A stretch of 64,000 nt of DNA from Candidatus Dormiibacterota bacterium (GTDB taxonomy: Bacteria; Chloroflexota; Dormibacteria; CF-121), in contig DASZZN010000051.1 of NCBI GenBank assembly GCA_035544955.1, positions 62,001 through 126,000 on the forward strand. The letters run 5' to 3'. Positions within the stretch are counted from its first letter, which is position 1. Each line of letters opens with the position of its first letter. This document shows positions 41,756-61,714 of this stretch, in pieces. Both the position numbers and the translations under genes were made by a program. The notes beneath the pieces were generated by a model that worked only from the letters and a program-made list of their open reading frames with translations, ran no database searches and was not told the origin of the DNA.

Positions 41756-44248
41756 GTGTCGCCAGAGAAGCACCGGTTTGCCCGGCTCGCCGCTATCCGT
41801 GTGCTCACCATCAGCCGGATCAAGCGGCGGCGGCGCGGCCATGGGCCCAAGATTCTCATCGTGGCGGTCACGCTCCTGGGCCTGCTCAGCCTCGGTGGCG
41901 GTGCCGAGGCGGTCGACAAGTACCAGACCTATACCCGCGACCTGCCGAACCCCAGCTCACTCAACCCGAAGGAACTCGCGCAGGCGACCAATATCTACGA
42001 CCGTAACGGCGTGCTGCTCTATGTCAAGCACACCGACGGCGTGATCCGAACGGTGATCCCGCTGTCCGCGATCTCCCCACACCTGATCGACGCCACCATT
42101 GCGCTGGAAGACCGGCAGTTCTATACCCATCAAGGGATCGACTTTCCCCGCATCGTCGCGGCGGCGATCGCCGACCTCACCCATCAGCGCGTGGAACAGG
42201 GCGCCAGCACGATCACCCAGCAGCTCGTCAAGCGCATGTTCGTGGGGAGCGCGAACTCCATCGAGCGCAAGGTCCGCGAAGCGACCCTAGCCCTCGAGAT
42301 CGAGCGTCGCTTCACCAAGAACGAGATCCTGACCCTCTACCTCAACCAGATCTTCTACGGGCACGAGGCCTACGGCATCGAGGCCGCGGCCCAGACCTAC
42401 TTCGCCAAGCCGGCAAAAGATCTGGACATCGCCCAGGCCGCCATGCTTGCCGGTATTCCGAACGCGCCCTCGAGTTTCGACCCATACAATCCAGCGACCG
42501 CCGCCCAGGCAATGAGTCGCCAGGATGTGGCGTTGCGCGCCATGCTCCGCGACCACTACATCAGCCAGCCAGAGTACGACAAGGCGGTCAAAGAGACGCT
42601 CACGTTTCAGGACGGGAGTATCCAGCGCGACCTGAAGGCGCCCTGGTTCGTCGACTATGTGCTGCGCCAGCTGAGTCAGAAATATGGGGACGCCGTCGTC
42701 GCGGGCGGCGGTCTGCGGGTCACGACCACGCTCGACTACAACCTGCAGCGGATCGCCGAGCAGGCGGTCTCCAACAATGTGAACCGCCCTGACCTGAAGG
42801 CGCGCAACGTCAACAACGGGGCAGCCGAGGTGATCGATCCCAACACCGGCCAGGTGCTCGCCATGGTCGGCAGCGCCAACTATTACGACCAGGCGATCGG
42901 CGGTCAGTACAACGTCATCACGGACGGGCAGGGGCGGCAACCAGGCTCCTCCTTCAAGATCTACGTTTACGCGACAGCCCTGGCCAACGGCTATGCGCCA
43001 TCGACCCTGATCCTTGACAAGCAGGGCAAGATCAACGGCCACCCCTTCGTCGACTGGGACCATCGGGACGAGGGCGTCATCACGATCCGGCGCGCGCTGG
43101 TGGAGTCGCGCAACATCCCGGCGATCGAGCTACTGAACCAGCTGGGTTACGACCGTGTCTTCCAGACGGCGCGCATGATGGGCCTAACGAACTCGAACCT
43201 GACGCCGGAACGCGGCCTCGCGCAGGCGATCGGCGCCACCGAGGTCGTGCCGATGCAGCACTTCAACGCCTATGGCGTGCTGGCGTCGGGCGGCATCTAC
43301 CACGATCCGACCGTCATCCTCAAGGTGGTCGACAGCCAGGGCCAGGTGCTGCAGGAGTGGAAGCCGGACGCGGGCGTTCGCGTGCTCCCGGCGCAGGTCG
43401 CCTACATGATCAGCGACATCCTGCGTCCGGTCGGCGCGGCGCTGAACATCAAGCGGCCGTTCGCCTCCAAGACCGGCACCACCGAAAACTGGCGCGACTC
43501 GTGGTTGATCGGGTATAGCCCGGACGTCGTCGTCGGCGCCTGGATGGGCCACACCTGTGCCGGTGGCTGCCCGGCCAATGTCAACTCCAACCTCAACGTG
43601 GTCTGGGGCGTGCAGGGCGCCGGGCTGATCTTCAAGGACATCTTCAACGCGTATGAAGCGAACAAACCGGTCAGGGACTTCGCAGTGCCGGACGGGCTCA
43701 AGCGCGTCAACATCTGCCTGCCCAGCGGGTTGCTGGCCACCGTGAGCTGCCCCACGACCCTCGCCGACTGGTTCATTGCCGGCACCTCGCCCACCCGCTA
43801 CGACGACTGGTGGCAGCCGCTGCGGGTCTGCACCACGGACGGCCTGCTCGCCACCGCCGACATTCCGACCAACCTCACGACGGTAAAGAGCTTCATCGTC
43901 TATCCGCCTGGATACCCGGAGGAGATGAAGGACAAGAACCTCCCGCAGGCGCCCACGCAGAACTGCCAGCTCTTTACGGAGACCACGTCGCCGACGCTGA
44001 CGCTGGCACAGGCGCCGCTGTCCGACGGCGGCGTGCTGGTCACCGCCACCGCGACCGATGACGAAGCGGTCAAGGAAGTCGACTTCTTCCTCGATGGGGC
44101 CAGCAAACCGATCCGGTTGACGCAGGCCCCCTACACCTTCGCGATCAGGGGCTCCTCGGGCAGCACGCACACGCTGAGCGTGCAGGCCTACGACTACAAC
44201 CCCGCCAACGCCCCGGCGGTGCAGACGCTCACCGTGACGCTCCCTTAG
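41756..44248 (+). CDS. Bifunctional class A penicillin-binding protein
   Basis: Peptidoglycan glycosyltransferase/transpeptidase, 830 residues. One N-terminal membrane helix (about 34-52); GT51 domain with catalytic Glu in ALEDRQFYTHQGID (about residue 117) and GASTITQQLVKRMF; transpeptidase with SxxK as GSSFKIY (about 398), SRN in VESRNIPAIE and KTGTTENWRDSW (about 570). A Ser/Thr-rich C-terminal part with an Ig-like fold follows. GTG start; ribosome site weak. It is the only plus-strand gene between 17 and 64 kb. Confidence 0.95.
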   Translation: MSPEKHRFARLAAIRVLTISRIKRRRRGHGPKILIVAVTLLGLLSLGGGAEAVDKYQTYTRDLPNPSSLNPKELAQATNIYDRNGVLLYVKHTDGVIRTVIPLSAISPHLIDATIALEDRQFYTHQGIDFPRIVAAAIADLTHQRVEQGASTITQQLVKRMFVGSANSIERKVREATLALEIERRFTKNEILTLYLNQIFYGHEAYGIEAAAQTYFAKPAKDLDIAQAAMLAGIPNAPSSFDPYNPATAAQAMSRQDVALRAMLRDHYISQPEYDKAVKETLTFQDGSIQRDLKAPWFVDYVLRQLSQKYGDAVVAGGGLRVTTTLDYNLQRIAEQAVSNNVNRPDLKARNVNNGAAEVIDPNTGQVLAMVGSANYYDQAIGGQYNVITDGQGRQPGSSFKIYVYATALANGYAPSTLILDKQGKINGHPFVDWDHRDEGVITIRRALVESRNIPAIELLNQLGYDRVFQTARMMGLTNSNLTPERGLAQAIGATEVVPMQHFNAYGVLASGGIYHDPTVILKVVDSQGQVLQEWKPDAGVRVLPAQVAYMISDILRPVGAALNIKRPFASKTGTTENWRDSWLIGYSPDVVVGAWMGHTCAGGCPANVNSNLNVVWGVQGAGLIFKDIFNAYEANKPVRDFAVPDGLKRVNICLPSGLLATVSCPTTLADWFIAGTSPTRYDDWWQPLRVCTTDGLLATADIPTNLTTVKSFIVYPPGYPEEMKDKNLPQAPTQNCQLFTETTSPTLTLAQAPLSDGGVLVTATATDDEAVKEVDFFLDGASKPIRLTQAPYTFAIRGSSGSTHTLSVQAYDYNPANAPAVQTLTVTLP

Positions 44249-44834
44249 GGCCCGACACCGAGCGGCTGCCGAGCACCGCGAAACGATAGGGCAGATCGAT
44301 GGCTCGCGAAATGCCGATCCGCCGTGATCGGGCCACGTCCCGATCGGGCACGGGCGAACCGGCAGCGAGTCCTAGTGGCCCGCGGGTGAAGTCGCGGCCA
44401 TCGTCCGTAAGGGTCAGGCCGAAGGCGCGGCCGATCTTTCCGGGGCCGCTCAGCAGCCGCGCTTCCGGCCCCCGATCGCCGCGGGCTCGCATGATCTCGA
44501 CTCCGGCAAGGGGCTCCAGGGCCCGAAGGAGCACGGCGCCAGCGGTGCCGGGAAGCTCCGCCGTGACGTTGAGGCAGTAGTGCATCCCGTATGTGAAGTA
44601 GACGTAGGCATAGCCGGCCGGGCCGAACATCACCGCATTACGAGGGGTGCGACCGCGGAACGCGTGCGATGCGGCGTCGGCGTCGCCCGTGTACGCCTCG
44701 GTCTCGACGATGCGGCCGGCCAGCAACCCCTCCGGCGTCTTGTAGAACAACACGCGCCCGAGCAAGTCCCGAGCCAGCACCACCGGGTCGCGGGCAAAGA
44801 ACCGGCGCGGCAGGCGCGGGGTCGTCAGGGCCAC
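44229..44834 (-). CDS. mpg: 3-methyladenine DNA glycosylase (AAG/MPG family)
   Basis: Excises alkylated purines. 201 residues with LARDLLGRVLFYK, GRIVETEAYTGDADAASHAF, the intercalating-residue region GYAYVYFTYGMHYCLNV, and GPGKIGRAFGLT. GTG start. The 3' end overlaps the convergent PBP gene by 20 nt. It follows cvpA on the same strand. Confidence 0.93.
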   Translation of the reverse strand: MALTTPRLPRRFFARDPVVLARDLLGRVLFYKTPEGLLAGRIVETEAYTGDADAASHAFRGRTPRNAVMFGPAGYAYVYFTYGMHYCLNVTAELPGTAGAVLLRALEPLAGVEIMRARGDRGPEARLLSGPGKIGRAFGLTLTDDGRDFTRGPLGLAAGSPVPDRDVARSRRIGISRAIDLPYRFAVLGSRSVSGPKGASR

Positions 44835-49482: not shown

Positions 49483-50049
49483 TTAATTCGTCCGTGCCTG
49501 GGCTTGAGGCGGGGGCGGCGCTTGAGCGGCCGCCGCTGCGCCAGCCGGAGCCAGGATCATGATCATGTTTCGCCCTTCGAGCAACGGCATCCGCTCGACC
49601 GTGCTGATGGTCTTCAGTTCGAGCGCCATCCGGTCGAGCAGCTTCTTGCCGATGTCCTGGTGCACCATCTCGCGGCCGCGGAACATGATCGTCAACTTGA
49701 CCTTGTCCCCCTCTTCGAGGAAGGACTTGACAGCATGGAACTTCGTCTGAAAGTCATGCTCGCCGATCTTGGGACGGAGTTTCATTTCTTTGACCTTGAT
49801 GACGTTGTGCTTGCGGCGCCCATCTTTCTCTTTCTTGATGCTCTCGAATTTGAATTTGCCGTAATCCATGATCCGAGCCACCGGTGGCTGTGCCTGCGGA
49901 GCGACCTCCACCAGGTCCATCTCCCGCTCGATGGCCAGCGCTTTGGCGCGGTCGATCGGCAGGACACCCAATTGTTCGTTCCGATCGTCGATGACGCGGA
50001 CTTCGGCGGCGCGGATCTGGTCGTTGATCCGAAGTTCCCTAAATGCCGT
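49483..50049 (-). CDS. infC: Translation initiation factor IF-3, apparent ACG start
   Basis: Proofreads start codons and keeps subunits apart. N-terminal domain RINDQIRAAEVRVID...EQLGVLP and RIMDYGKFKFESIKKEK, C-terminal domain with LRPKIGEHDFQTK and GREMVHQDIG; an Ala/Pro/Gln tail ends the protein. The conserved N-terminus begins upstream of the first TTG (49971), and no ATG/GTG/TTG exists before the in-frame stop at 50053-50055. ACG 50049 lies 8 nt after AAGGAGG and gives 188 residues starting AFRELRIND. Rare start codons in infC, used for IF3 autoregulation, are established in E. coli (AUU). Confidence 0.95.
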   Translation of the reverse strand, partial: TAFRELRINDQIRAAEVRVIDDRNEQLGVLPIDRAKALAIEREMDLVEVAPQAQPPVARIMDYGKFKFESIKKEKDGRRKHNVIKVKEMKLRPKIGEHDFQTKFHAVKSFLEEGDKVKLTIMFRGREMVHQDIGKKLLDRMALELKTISTVERMPLLEGRNMIMILAPAGAAAAAQAPPPPQAQARTN

Positions 50050-54780: not shown

Positions 54781-56157
54781 CTAGAGCCGGGCTGTTCCGT
54801 CCTTGGAGAGGGTCGGCGGCACCAGCGGACTGCGACGGCCGGCCAACGCCGAGATCAGACCGCTCCCGACCAGCAGGCAGCCCATGCCGAAGATGACCCA
54901 GGTGACGCCGAAGAGGTCGGCGAGGCCGCCAGCCAGCAGGATGGGGACGGCGACGGCGGCGTTGACCACCGTGAACATCGCGCCGAAGATGCGGCCGCGC
55001 AGTTCCGCTTCCGTCTTTTCCTGCAAGACCGTGAAGGCCGGGATGAAGAGCATGCCGAATTCCAGGCCGCCGATGAACCCGAAGACCACCGGGAAGGAAA
55101 CCAGCAGCCACTTGACGCCGAGCTGCTCCAATAGGTATGGGACTGAAGCCATCAGCATCAGCGTGGCGCCGGCGGAGAGTAACCCGCCGATCAGGAGGCG
55201 GCTGCGCCGGAAGTGGCGCCCATACTGGCCCAGGTAGAACGCGGCCGCCAGCATCCCGATCACGGCCGGGGCCAGGAAGAGGTAGACGTCGGTGACCTGC
55301 AGGTGGAGCACCGTGCTCATATAGCTGGGCGCCAGCACGAAGATCGAGAAGATCACCGCGATCGTCAGGCTCAACTGCAGCACCGCGAAACGCACCAGGG
55401 GACGCGCCGCGATGTAGGCGATGCCCTCCCGGAGCTCATAAAGGATATCGGTCTTCACCTCTGGTGTCTCGTGGCTGCGAGCGCGCAGGTCACTCTTGAC
55501 CAGGTAGATGAGCCAGGCCGCCAGCAGGAAGAGGGCGGCGGCGATCCAATAGGGCGAGTTGGTACCGAGAAAGCGCACGGCGAGGGTTGAGAGCGGCACG
55601 GCGATCAGCAGGGTGACGATCACCGTGCTGGTGAACATCGAGGTGGCGGTCATCAGCTCCTCGGTCCCGACGATGAAGGGGATGGATGCCGCTTCCGCCG
55701 GCGCGAAGATCTGGCCGACCGCGGCAAACAGAAAGATGATGACGAAGAGGTGCCAGGTGACGTGCTCGAAGTAGGGGGTGACCTGGCTGAGTGGGATGAG
55801 CAGAATCAAGCCGCCTCGGATCGCGTTGGTGAAGAACATCAAGCGCTTCTTGTCGTGGCGGTCGGCGTACACGCCGGCCAGCGGGCTGAGAAAGACCGAC
55901 GGAAAGGTGTACGCGAGGAAGAGCGCTGCGCCGTGAGTGCTCGCCCGGCTGATGCTGTAGGTCAGGATGAGCAGGGCGAACATCAAGAACTTGTCGGCCA
56001 GTTGCGAGGCGACCTGCGCCGACCAGATCAGCCGGAAGTCGCGATTGGCAAGCACTGTCCGAAAGCCCGGCTGAGGAAGGATGATGTCGCGCGGGTCCCG
56101 ACCCGCGCCGACCTCGTCTGGCTCCTTCAAGGCGCCTAAATCGTAGCTACTTGTCAC
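54781..56157 (-). CDS. Major facilitator superfamily transporter (MFS_3/enterobactin-exporter-like)
   Basis: 458 residues with twelve predicted membrane helices in two halves. Typical MFS loop GVYADRHDKKRLMF between helices 2 and 3, and FRLIWSAQVASQLADKFL at the start. The central loop is charged (KSDLRARSHETPEVKTD). Efflux of a small molecule is likely; substrate unknown. GTG start overlaps the rsmA stop (GTGA), an unusual partner for rsmA. Confidence 0.88.
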   Translation of the reverse strand: MTSSYDLGALKEPDEVGAGRDPRDIILPQPGFRTVLANRDFRLIWSAQVASQLADKFLMFALLILTYSISRASTHGAALFLAYTFPSVFLSPLAGVYADRHDKKRLMFFTNAIRGGLILLIPLSQVTPYFEHVTWHLFVIIFLFAAVGQIFAPAEAASIPFIVGTEELMTATSMFTSTVIVTLLIAVPLSTLAVRFLGTNSPYWIAAALFLLAAWLIYLVKSDLRARSHETPEVKTDILYELREGIAYIAARPLVRFAVLQLSLTIAVIFSIFVLAPSYMSTVLHLQVTDVYLFLAPAVIGMLAAAFYLGQYGRHFRRSRLLIGGLLSAGATLMLMASVPYLLEQLGVKWLLVSFPVVFGFIGGLEFGMLFIPAFTVLQEKTEAELRGRIFGAMFTVVNAAVAVPILLAGGLADLFGVTWVIFGMGCLLVGSGLISALAGRRSPLVPPTLSKDGTARL

Positions 56158-56966
56158 CGATCGCGCTCATTCTCGAAAAGTCGCCTCCATTCCTCGAGCG
56201 TCAAGGTCTCGGCGCGGCGCGCCGGGTCGATGCCTATAACGCTCAGCCGGGCACGAGCCTCCGTACCGCTGGTGCCCCGCCTTCGACCCAGCACAAACGT
56301 CAGCTGCTTGCGACGAGCCTGGAAGAAGGGTGTGACGAATTGGAAGAAGCTGGCCAGGTCGGCGCGTGGGACCGCAGGCTCGGCCTCGGGGATGATGCGC
56401 ACCAGGGCCGAATCAACCCGCGGGAGCGGCAGGAAGGCACTACGCGGGACGCGGAGGGTTAGCTCAGGCCGACCGTAGACGCGAACACCCAGCGTGGCGA
56501 GGCTCCAGTCGCCCGCTGGGGCCACCAGGCGCTCCGCCACCTCCTTCTGCACCAGCAGGTCGATACGAGCCGGTGGCAGTGGTTGCTCCAACAGGTGGAC
56601 GAAGAGCGCACCTGTGAGGTTGTAGGGAATATTGCCCGCAACCCGGTAGGGCGAGGGCAGCAGCTCGCTGACCGCCGTGCGCAGGATGTCGGCCTCGATG
56701 ATCCGGACATTTGACCGATCCCGCAGCGCCAGGCCCAACGCCTTGACGCAGGCGGGATCGATCTCGACTCCCGCCACGGCTCGTGCCCGGCTCGCCAGTT
56801 CGACCGTGAGCGCGCCCAGACCGGGACCGACCTCGACCATCCGGTCCGTGGGCGCGATCTCGAGCGCTTCGACGATCCGGTCGAGTTGCGACCGGTCGGC
56901 AAGAAAGTTCTGTCCCCAACGCCGCAGGTAGCGAACTCCGAAGCGGCGGGCCACGCCCCGGATCAC
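56154..56966 (-). CDS. rsmA: 16S rRNA dimethyladenosine transferase (KsgA)
   Basis: Dimethylates A1518/A1519 of 16S rRNA. 270 residues with LRRWGQNFLADRSQLDRIV, motif I MVEVGPGLGALTVEL, motif IV VAGNIPYNLTGALF and PLPRVDSALVRI. GTG 56966 has no ribosome site; the frame stays open upstream with a plausible extension (RPLDLADPS), so the start may lie a few codons earlier. The metG-tatD-rsmA order is classical. Confidence 0.94.
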   Translation of the reverse strand: MIRGVARRFGVRYLRRWGQNFLADRSQLDRIVEALEIAPTDRMVEVGPGLGALTVELASRARAVAGVEIDPACVKALGLALRDRSNVRIIEADILRTAVSELLPSPYRVAGNIPYNLTGALFVHLLEQPLPPARIDLLVQKEVAERLVAPAGDWSLATLGVRVYGRPELTLRVPRSAFLPLPRVDSALVRIIPEAEPAVPRADLASFFQFVTPFFQARRKQLTFVLGRRRGTSGTEARARLSVIGIDPARRAETLTLEEWRRLFENERDR

Positions 56967-56997
56967 CGAGGGATCGGCAAGATCGAGCGGGCGTTTG

Positions 56998-57777
56998 CTA
57001 GCCGGCGTGGGGCAACCGAAAAAGGTCGATGGCGTTCTGGCTAGTCGCCTGGCCGATCTCCGCCGGCGTCGTGCCGCGGAGCTTCGCGATCCGCTCGACG
57101 GTCTCCACGATGTAGCGCGGGGCGTTGGGCTGCCCGCGCCGGCTCTGCGGCGGAAGAAAGGGCGAGTCGGTTTCCACCAGCATGTGGTCCAGCGGGATGA
57201 TACTGGCGGCGCCGATCACCCCGTGGGCGGTCGGATAGGTCACAGTCCCGGCGAATGAGAGGTAAAAGCCACGCGCCAGCGCTTCTGCGGCGAACGCCGA
57301 ATTGCCGCTGAAGCAGTGAAAGACGCCGTTCAGTCCGGGAAACTCGTCGAGGATGGCCAGCAAGTCCGGGAAGGCATCGCGAGTGTGGAGCACCACCGGC
57401 TTCTCCAGCTCCTGGGCCAGGCCGAGCATCTGGCGAAAGACCTGTTGTTGACCGCGCGCCGGAACGCGATGGTAGTCCGTGAAGTGGTAATCGAGACCGA
57501 TCTCGCCGACTGCGACCACACTCGGATGGCTGGCCAGCTGCCGCAGCTCTCGCCGCTCTGCCGAATCGATCGGATCACCGGCCGAGTGTGGGTGCCGGCC
57601 GATGGTCGTTTTCAAGCCCGGGATACGCTCGGCCAGTTCGACGCCCGGGCGGTTGTCCGAGGCATCATCGCCGATGTTCAGCACGGCCGCCACCCCCGCC
57701 GTCCTCGCCTCCTCCAGCGCCTGCTCCGGCGTGAGTGGCTGGCGCAGGTGCAGAAGATGGGCGTGCGAATCGATCAG
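56998..57777 (-). CDS. tatD: TatD-family deoxyribonuclease, apparent CTG start
   Basis: Metal-dependent nuclease of the amidohydrolase fold. IDSHAHL (HxH ligands), GEIGLDYH, VLHTRDAF, FHCFSGN and ETDSPFLPP are all present. The HxH motif must start the protein, yet the codon before IDSHAHL is CTG (57777-57775), overlapping the metG TGA as CTGA and lying 8 nt after GGAG. It yields 259 residues, a normal length. The nearest upstream canonical start is a GTG deep in metG that would add an unrelated extension. Confidence 0.93.
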   Translation of the reverse strand: MIDSHAHLLHLRQPLTPEQALEEARTAGVAAVLNIGDDASDNRPGVELAERIPGLKTTIGRHPHSAGDPIDSAERRELRQLASHPSVVAVGEIGLDYHFTDYHRVPARGQQQVFRQMLGLAQELEKPVVLHTRDAFPDLLAILDEFPGLNGVFHCFSGNSAFAAEALARGFYLSFAGTVTYPTAHGVIGAASIIPLDHMLVETDSPFLPPQSRRGQPNAPRYIVETVERIAKLRGTTPAEIGQATSQNAIDLFRLPHAG

Positions 57778-59315
57778 GCGACCGGCTCCGGCTTCTCGAT
57801 GCGGGGAAAGAGGACACCGCCGAGCGCCGTCTGGGTGCGCGGCGCCAGTCTCCCCCACTCCCTGGCGGTCGCCCACGGGGCCTTCAAGTCCGCCTTGATC
57901 TGCGCCGCGACCTTGGTGGCCGTCTCCGGCAGGAAGGGCGAGATAAGGTAACTCGTGAGCCGGATCGCCTCGACCAGGTTGTACATGACGGTCTGCAGCC
58001 GCTTGCGTTGATCCGACTGTTTGGCTAGCACCCAGGGCGCGCTTTCCTCGATGTACTTGTTCCCGCGGTTGACCGCTTCCCAGATGAGATCGAGGGCGCC
58101 CGTGAAGTCCAGCACCTTCATGTGCTTGTCCTGCCCGCGCACAGCCTTCTCGAAGGCTGTCTGGAGGTGTTTGTCGAGCGCCATCGCGTCGCCATCGGGG
58201 GCCGGCACCTTGCCGTCGAAATACCGCTGCAGCATGGAGAGCGTTCGGTAGACAAAGTTCCCCAGGTCGTTGGCCAGATCGGCATTGAATCGATCCGTCA
58301 TCGTTTCCCAGCTGATCTCTCCGTCACGATCGAACGGCAGCTCACGCAACAGGAGATAGCGGACCGCTTCGGCGCCGAAGCGCTCGGCGGCTTCCAGCGG
58401 ATCGATGTAGTTTCCCGCGCTCTTGCTCATCTTCTCGCCCCGGACAGTGAGGAACCCGTGCGCGTATACCCGCTTCGGCACTGCCACTCCCGCGGACATC
58501 AACATTGCCGGCCAGTAGAGGCAATGGAAGCGCGTGATGTCCTTCCCGATCACGTGGAGGTCGGCCGGCCACCAGCGCTTGAACATCGCCTCATCGGTCC
58601 CGTACCCAACACCGGTGGCGTAGTTGACCAGGGCGTCTCCCCAGACATAGACGACGTGCTTGTCATCACCCGGGAAGGGAATGCCCCACTTGATGGTCGA
58701 ACGCGAGATGCTGAAGTCTTGCAGGCCGGCCCGTAGCCACCCGAGGACTTCGTTGCGGCGGGACTCCGGCTGGATGAACTCGGGGTGCTTGTCGATGTGC
58801 TGCTGCAGTCGGTCCTGGTAAGCGGACAGCTTGAAGAAGTAGTTCTCCTCCTTCAGCCACTGGGCCTTGAGCGTGGGGTGGATCAGACAGTACCCATCCT
58901 TGAGGTCGGCGTCTTGCTTGAACGCCTCGCAGGAGACGCAATACCAACCCTCGTAGGAGCCCTTAAAGATGTCCCCCTTCGCCTGCATCTTCGCGATGAA
59001 CGCTTGCACACCCAGGACATGGTCGGGATCCTCGGTCCGGATGAAGCGGTCATAGGAGATCCCAAACCGAGCTTCGATGTCCCGGTAGAGCTGCGCCATT
59101 CGAGCGGTAAAGTCCGCGGTCGACACGCCTTCTTCCTCCGCCTTGCGTCGCACGTTTTGTGAGTGCTCGTCGGTACCGGTAAGAAAGAAGGTGTCGTCCC
59201 CGATCAGGCGGTGGTAGCGTGCCAGGGCGTCGGTGCCCACCAGTTCATAGATGAAGCCAAGGTGGGGCGCGGCGTTGGGATACACGATCGCGGTGGTGAC
59301 GTAGAACTTACTCAT
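57774..59315 (-). CDS. metG: Methionyl-tRNA synthetase
   Basis: 513 residues; class I synthetase. HIGH as PHLGFIY, zinc-domain cysteines in YCVSCEAF, the Trp-containing FPGDDKHVVYVWGDALVNY, and KMSKS in GEKMSKSAGNY (about residue 292). No C-terminal tRNA-binding domain. ATG start. Confidence 0.96.
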   Translation of the reverse strand: MSKFYVTTAIVYPNAAPHLGFIYELVGTDALARYHRLIGDDTFFLTGTDEHSQNVRRKAEEEGVSTADFTARMAQLYRDIEARFGISYDRFIRTEDPDHVLGVQAFIAKMQAKGDIFKGSYEGWYCVSCEAFKQDADLKDGYCLIHPTLKAQWLKEENYFFKLSAYQDRLQQHIDKHPEFIQPESRRNEVLGWLRAGLQDFSISRSTIKWGIPFPGDDKHVVYVWGDALVNYATGVGYGTDEAMFKRWWPADLHVIGKDITRFHCLYWPAMLMSAGVAVPKRVYAHGFLTVRGEKMSKSAGNYIDPLEAAERFGAEAVRYLLLRELPFDRDGEISWETMTDRFNADLANDLGNFVYRTLSMLQRYFDGKVPAPDGDAMALDKHLQTAFEKAVRGQDKHMKVLDFTGALDLIWEAVNRGNKYIEESAPWVLAKQSDQRKRLQTVMYNLVEAIRLTSYLISPFLPETATKVAAQIKADLKAPWATAREWGRLAPRTQTALGGVLFPRIEKPEPVA

Positions 59316-60012: not shown

Positions 60013-60867
60013 TCAGTGTCCCCAATCGCGCGGGTAGCGGAAGTCGCGGTCGATCGTCCGTGAGGATAGCTTGGCGATGACGGGCAGGCGGCGTTTGTAC
60101 TGGTTCTCGCGGACGCGGCGGACGATCTCCTCGACAAACGCCGGATCGAAGCCCAGCTTCTTTACCTCTTCCACCGAATAGCGCCGTTCCACCAGGTAGT
60201 AGAGCAGCTGGTCGATCATCCGGTACTGGAAGCCTAGCTCGGTCTCGTCCGCCTGCCCCGCCCAGAGATCGGCGGAGGGCGCCTTCTGCACGATCCCCGT
60301 GGGCACACCGAGAGCGTCGGCCAACTGCCAGATCTGGGTTTTGTAGAGGTCGCCGATCGGATTGATTGCGCTCGCCATGTCGCCGTAGATCGTGCCATAG
60401 CCAAGCAGCAGCTCGGTCTTGTTGCTGGTCCCGATGACGAGCGCGCGCCACGCCCACGACTGGTCATAGAGGATCGACATTCGCTCGCGCGCCATCTTGT
60501 TCCCCCGTTGCTTTTGGTCGGCCTCGGGAAAATTCTCGAAGTAGGCATCGATCTGCGGGCTGATCTCGATCTCCAGGTGATGGATGCCCAGCTGCTGCAC
60601 GACCTGCAACGCGTCGCTCTTACTCTTGGGGTCGCTCGTCGTGTAGGGCATGATGAAAGCCACCACGTTCTTCGGCCCGAGCGCCTCGGTGGCGAGCGTT
60701 GCCACCAGGCTCGAATCGACCCCGCCGCTCAGGCCAAGGACGACCCGTTCGAAACCGACCTTGCGCACCTCGTTGCGGATGAAGCCGACGAGAATCCCGC
60801 GGACGAGTTCGGGATTGATCCGCAGTGGCGGAAAGACGGGTTCAGAAAGGCTTGCGGGTGCGCTCAT
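60013..60867 (-). CDS. nadE: NAD+ synthetase, ammonia-type catalytic subunit
   Basis: Last step of NAD synthesis. 284 residues; PP-loop [27 protein letters not shown] and [18 protein letters not shown]. There is no N-terminal glutaminase domain; the adjacent nitrilase gene probably supplies ammonia. ATG 60867 lies inside the end of that gene (26-nt overlap). Confidence 0.94.
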
Positions 60868-61714
60868 GCCAGACCCGTCGCAGCTCGTTGACGGTGAGTT
60901 CGAGCCGCTCATCACGCAGGAGTGGATTGGCGAGCCGCTCACGACGGACGTCACCAAGGTCGATTGTGGCGAGAACGAGCGCCTCGTCGGCGTCCTCCTG
61001 CTGCGCGATGATGTCGCCGTTCGGGCCGATCACCATGGAGCCGCCCCAGAAGTTCGCGCCATCCTCATACCCCACCCGGTTGCAGTAGAGGAAGAAGGTC
61101 GTCAGGAACTGGGCATAGGTGCGGCAGAGGAGACCGTACGATTCCGAGGTTCCGAGCCGCTCGTCGGTCGTGATCCCACGCCCCGGGCTGGCGGATGGGC
61201 AGATGATCATGTCGACGCCTTCGAGACTGAGAACGTAGGCGCTGGAGAGGTGCCAGATGTCTTCGCAGACCAGGATCCCGGCCCGGCCGAATCCCGTCTT
61301 GAAACTGCGGAACCGGTCACCGGCCGCGAAATAGCGATGCTCATCGAACATGCCATAGGTCGGGAGGTACACCTTGCGGTGGACGTGGACGAGTTCACCG
61401 CGACTGAAGTAGAGACTGGCGTTGAAGTAGCGATGATCAGGCTCTTCGACAACCGCTCCGAGCACGACGTCCAGGCTGGCGGACAGGCCGCCTAGTTCAT
61501 CCATCACGGCGCCTTCCAGCGGGATCGCGCTGTCCGGGACCAGGTCTTTGAGGAAATAGCCGGTAAGACTGAGCTCGGGGAAAACCAGCAGTTCGACGCC
61601 GGCCTCGCCCGCTTGCCGCACCCACTGGCGATGCCGCTCGAGGTTACGAGCACGGTCGCCGAGCGCCGGGTCCATCTGAACCAGCCCGACCGCGAGCCGG
61701 CCGTTCGGGCTCAC
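60842..61714 (-). CDS. Nitrilase-superfamily amidohydrolase, likely glutaminase partner of NadE
   Basis: 290 residues with the Glu-Lys-Cys triad: [23 protein letters not shown] and ILVCEDIWH. The CEDIWH context matches glutaminase domains of glutamine-dependent NAD synthetases, normally fused N-terminal to NadE. Here it is a separate upstream gene overlapping nadE, which implies a two-subunit enzyme. GTG start overlaps the dinG stop (GTGA). Confidence 0.88.

Follow-up and report, generated by a model that had tools for sequence, protein, structure and literature searches.

A CTG codon overlapping the metG stop as the probable start of tatD in a family of Dormibacteria

At which codon does the translation of tatD begin when its reading frame passes straight through the stop codon of the upstream gene and no canonical start lies close to the conserved N-terminus? 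This question is raised by the metG-tatD junction in the window, i.e. the stretch of 64,000 nucleotides from the genome of a soil bacterium (Candidatus Dormiibacterota) that was analyzed here. The first-pass annotation had placed the start at a CTG that overlaps the metG stop as CTGA, with a GGAG 8 nt before it, and both elements were found at these places (Table 1). It had also put the HxH motif right after the CTG; the motif is present, but it sits four codons later, at codons 5 and 7. In the tatD frame the nearest canonical starts upstream are the two GTG codons at -27 and -33, and the first one downstream is a GTG at +28 codons, which already lies past the HxH motif.

Table 1 Features of the metG-tatD junction and of two further genes with rare starts (positions in the window).
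Feature	Positions	Strand	Evidence or remark
tatD coding region read from CTG	56998..57777	-	259 codons + TAG; TIGR00010, PF01026
CTG, proposed tatD start codon	57775..57777	-	invariant in 17/17 usable family N-termini; coding score
metG TGA stop, shares CTGA with the tatD CTG	57774..57776	-	reading of sequence
GGAG, Shine-Dalgarno-like (SD), 8 nt before CTG	57786..57789	-	spacer comparison in 17 relatives
metG, methionine--tRNA ligase, upstream coupled gene	57774..59315	-	NF008900, 645.6 bits (cut-off 598)
GTG at -27, rejected tatD start	57856..57858	-	by-product of metG Glu-Trp-Gly codons
GTG at -33, opens longest canonical tatD ORF, rejected	57874..57876	-	in only 3/17 relatives
infC from probable ACG start (50049-50047)	49483..50049	-	SD AAGGAGG 8 nt upstream; relatives
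rsmA from probable ACG start (57008-57006), inside tatD tail	56154..57008	-	relatives

Translated literally from the CTG codon, tatD yields a product of 259 residues beginning LIDSHAHLL. Profile searches aligned position 1 of TIGR00010 with the CTG codon (234.2 bits, cut-off 206) and matched PF01026 over its full length (1-253/253). The conserved His/Glu/Asp motifs of the TatD family are present, with HAH at 5, GEIGLD at 91, LHTRD at 130, HCFSG at 154 and VETDSP at 201; the protein is a complete member with intact motifs and is unusual in its start codon only. The CTG codon is aligned with a Met of the TatD-like chain 1j6o, whose structure is solved, and the 12 residues preceding this Met are presumably an expression tag. 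Furthermore, the coding score turns on at the CTG, amounting to +18.1 downstream and -12.9 upstream of it.

The comparison of the junction in relatives, which had been proposed as a check on the start, was carried out in the home family, where TatD was found in 17 of 18 genomes from four genera (a second, partial match in L016 was dropped). The CTG overlapping the metG TGA is kept in all 17 usable N-termini; even in the three other genera, whose metG tail differs, CTGA is still retained. GGAG is present in 16 of these relatives, with a spacer of 8 nt in 15 of them and of 11 nt in L019, and is missing in L017 (one genus). An assembly error as the origin of the CTG was rejected, the bases being identical in 17 separate genomes.

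A start at one of the two upstream GTG codons (57858 or 57876) would give TatD an extension of 27 to 33 residues overlapping MetG. The codon at -33 opens the longest canonical reading frame, and 15/17 relatives have some canonical start between -27 and -33. However, L003 and L015 contain no in-frame ATG, GTG or TTG at all between the upstream stop and the CTG. Within the genus the -27 codon arises where metG encodes Glu-Trp-Gly, a stretch that yields GTG when read in the tatD frame. Precisely these two genomes, whose metG has Asp-Trp, lack it; the GTG thus follows from what MetG encodes. As the first-pass annotation had anticipated, the tail that such a start would add is conserved as MetG and not as TatD: among 14 genus members the mean pairwise identity of the 27 codons before the CTG is 93% in the metG frame and 59% in the tatD frame, vs 81% for the first 27 TatD codons. 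Together with the negative coding score before the CTG, these results make the upstream starts, which were rejected, very improbable.

With respect to the metG frame, the C of the tatD CTG is the wobble base of an Ala, Gly or Pro codon, at which any change would create a canonical start. Fourfold third positions of metG are mostly free to change, 67 of 73 columns being variable and six invariant. The C belongs to the invariant ones, and these are concentrated at the junction, since three of the four fourfold columns within the last five metG codons are invariant as compared to 3/69 elsewhere (Fisher P 0.0012). For comparison, G is the third base in 41% of the Ala codons of a genome sample, and at the tatD site it would make GTG.

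The codon directly after the CTG, ATC, is likewise invariant in the 17 family members and is a start codon of translation table 11. Initiation at this ATC (57774-57772) would overlap the metG stop by 1 nt (TGATC) and give a product M-D-S-H-A-H. ATC is also used at tatD in the sister family f4, but the codon concerned is aligned farther upstream. Yet its invariance in the home family says little, because a constant Ile is often encoded by ATC throughout (3/5 columns). Furthermore, the Shine-Dalgarno spacing would be 11 nt, vs 8 nt to the CTG, position 1 of TIGR00010 corresponds to the CTG codon, and the C of the CTG would be a free metG wobble base that nevertheless never varies. The ATC is consequently disfavored, above all by the invariant C and the spacing, and we regard it as an unlikely start. 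The points that speak against the CTG, in turn, are the upstream canonical start in 15/17 relatives, the invariant ATC and the lack of GGAG in L017, as well as the ordinary initiator tRNA and the low efficiency of CUG in E. coli, both taken up below.

Beyond the home family, TatD was found in 104 of 110 genomes of the class. In families f2 and f3 an ATG, GTG or TTG lies at most 15 codons upstream in 46/46 usable rows (row G032, whose match begins late, is left out). Of the 40 genomes of f4, 24 lack a canonical start all the way back to the next stop upstream, four have a remote one only and 12 a nearby one. An ATC precedes the conserved Phe/Tyr-Val-Asp in 22/40 of them, in each case with GGAG, GAGG or AGGA upstream (22/22), and the ATC of G069 and G077 is immediately preceded by an in-frame metG stop. 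At the same codon position G082 carries GTG and G084, from the same genus, ATG; CTGA recurs in G091, and G094 displays no clear start of either kind. For tatD at L134 (G100, f4) no usual or near-usual start codon was evident within about ten codons upstream. Outside the class 57 loci from a genome collection and 18 from the phylum were inspected, a few of which are in fact from the class and duplicate rows of the counts above; all readable ones have a canonical start within 25 codons, one locus running off the contig edge and one lying too near an edge to be read. Internal tatD stops in two genomes of another class (L179, L194) turned out to be normal gene ends only.

The survey also bears on a fusion of MetG and TatD through frameshifting or stop readthrough. 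In its favor, the two frames overlap or lie close in the home family and in most of f4. The frame relation, however, is not kept: counted from the aligned codon, metG stops at +1 in f1, and in f4 the distance is +4, -6, -9, -10 or -11, so that all three frames occur. The fusion was therefore rejected and its probability is practically negligible.

The chance level of CTGA was estimated from 405 kb, or about 11%, of the home genome (the window and some 342 kb from elsewhere), in which a home-made gene caller recognized 365 genes; the per-gene counts are rough, because at least one call (60013-60957) looks wrong-frame. At 68 junctions the next ORF lies in the -1 frame at a TGA, comprising 20 ATGA, 21 GTGA, 9 TTGA and 18 CTGA. 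CTGA alone is weak evidence, because at most CTGA junctions a canonical start is found within a few codons (often as CTGATG); it is absent in 5/18, namely at tatD and at genes that we call hisN-like, RibD-like, ECF sigma-like and SIS-domain-like from the appearance of their sequences rather than from a family search. The SIS-domain-like gene lies at L207 12614-13636 (minus strand), the hisN-like gene at L205 6335-7105 (plus strand). For tatD, by comparison, the alignments of relatives provide strong evidence of a CTG start.

The same lineage contains further rare starts. At a single NTGA site of the hisN-like gene, 13 home-family loci carry CTG (seven), GTG (four) or ATG (two), not counting L228 at a contig edge and weak paralogues. 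Of all the observations, this interchange points most clearly to CTG serving as a start codon in the lineage. At the RibD-like gene all 13 genus loci show CTGA, and two other genera have a nearby ATG or TTG. The ECF sigma-like gene has it in 3/3 close orthologues, the own copy included, two of which possess a canonical start 24 codons upstream. These three genes lend the tatD CTG independent support. A census of the window covered 30 genes, each with four relatives or more; for three of them, tatD, rsmA and infC, no canonical start was kept consistently within the genus, and a fourth gave a mixed picture. This fourth gene (44229-44834, minus strand), presumably resembling a 3-methyladenine DNA glycosylase, has GTG in the window, whereas several relatives lack a canonical start nearby and show CTG or CTA instead.

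The infC gene is preceded by AAGGAGG and an in-frame TGA, and no ATG, GTG, TTG or ATN follows until inside the conserved domain. An ACG occurs in every row that was framed, other genera included (L262 could not be framed), and the framed rows of f4 (L292 was not framed) show ATA, ATC or ATT in this column, so that ACG seems to be the probable start. In most genus members rsmA likewise has an in-frame TGA just upstream and no canonical start before the conserved LDLADP. Its ACG lies within the tatD tail and is invariant, even though a switch to CAT, the other His codon, would have turned it into ATG; rsmA probably starts at this ACG. Non-canonical infC starts are established, with ATT in E. coli and ATC in Streptomyces, according to the available part of PMC5472188. 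An ACG start of infC was not found in the literature searched, which most subscription papers lay outside of.

The initiation machinery looked ordinary in the two components that were inspected. The initiator tRNA was searched for the M1-type change of the anticodon stem, a known alteration of this tRNA, which was absent; the stem is normal (GGG-CTCATAA-CCC) and therefore explains nothing of the tolerance of CTG. IF3 displayed nothing out of the ordinary in an overall comparison with solved IF3 sequences.

Based on the anatomy of the junction, its conservation and the lack of conserved alternative starts, all of which were observed directly, we propose with a probability of roughly 85% that tatD is translated from the CTG by ribosomes that terminate on metG. 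Ribosomes ending metG at the overlapping TGA would be held by the GGAG and resume one base further back, at the CTG, which the initiator tRNA would read as formyl-methionine, so that TatD would begin M-I-D-S-H-A-H. Because CTG is a poor start, the output of TatD relative to MetG would be low and fixed, and the site may be sensitive to IF3, as is the case for sigR with its GTC. The first-pass annotation is hence confirmed in its observation and supported in its interpretation by the comparison of relatives.

The papers cited in the following were available in part. An NTGA overlap with a Shine-Dalgarno sequence inside the upstream gene is the classic setting of termination-reinitiation (PMC6728339, PMC12548453), and tatD shares with such systems the -4 spacing, the two bases common to start and stop and the SD in the upstream gene; the overlaps in PMC6728339 are ATGA and TGATG, whereas at tatD N is C. 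Initiation at CUG in E. coli employs the initiator tRNA, as proposed here, yet it is rare and weak, with an efficiency of 0.86% of AUG and a share of 0.024% of bacterial starts (PMC11497404), whereas the tatD CTG is fixed at one gene in a whole family. For infC and Streptomyces sigR (GTC), repression of non-canonical starts by IF3 was shown experimentally (PMC5472188). As at tatD, a codon other than ATG, GTG or TTG is conserved across a taxon, an SD is present and annotation is drawn to an upstream canonical codon; sigR moreover lies in a translationally coupled operon (PMC5472188). The tatD codon differs from both in being a CTG at a 4-nt overlap. Reinitiation at non-canonical codons has been reported, but in a eukaryotic system (PMC4648390), and CUG is very rare among reconstructed start-codon switches (PMC5622118). 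The available parts of PMC2669436, PMC11445065, PMC9581028 and PMC5622118 hold no case like the tatD CTG, and a search that most subscription papers were beyond yielded no paper joining tatD, metG and the start codon.

Rare start codons and NTGA coupling are thus already known, and tatD is a strongly conserved example of them; notable are the family-fixed CTG, the ATC in the sister family f4 and the further rare starts nearby. Assuming that tatD does start at the CTG, its weakness could be a product of drift, the coupling making the identity of the start unimportant, so that CTG and ATC are tolerated and not selected. Several junctions of the lineage have rare starts and the hisN-like gene changes freely between CTG, ATG and GTG, as this explanation would predict; the tatD C, however, stays the same throughout the 17 genomes, even though a silent substitution in the Ala, Gly or Pro codon would produce a canonical start there, and most fourfold metG columns do vary. 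The unchanged C favors selection and the hisN-like exchange favors tolerance; drift as the whole account appears conceivable but somewhat doubtful.

As a tentative picture, which could quite possibly hold, this class of Chloroflexi would have a relaxed choice of start codons, with fixed CTG, ACG and ATC/ATA in the housekeeping genes tatD, hisN-like, RibD-like, rsmA and infC, on the order of 1% of genes or more, and a weak metG-tatD start that was kept or reinvented in two families and holds TatD far below MetG. Most gene finders consider ATG, GTG and TTG only, and because of this the N-termini of tatD, infC, rsmA and others are probably misannotated or truncated in the lineage. The family-wide CTG, the ATC of f4 and the hisN-like exchange make it testable whether rare starts at coupled junctions are tolerated or kept for the sake of protein ratios, and the lineage provides natural test cases for the way in which start codons are judged by IF3 and the ribosome.
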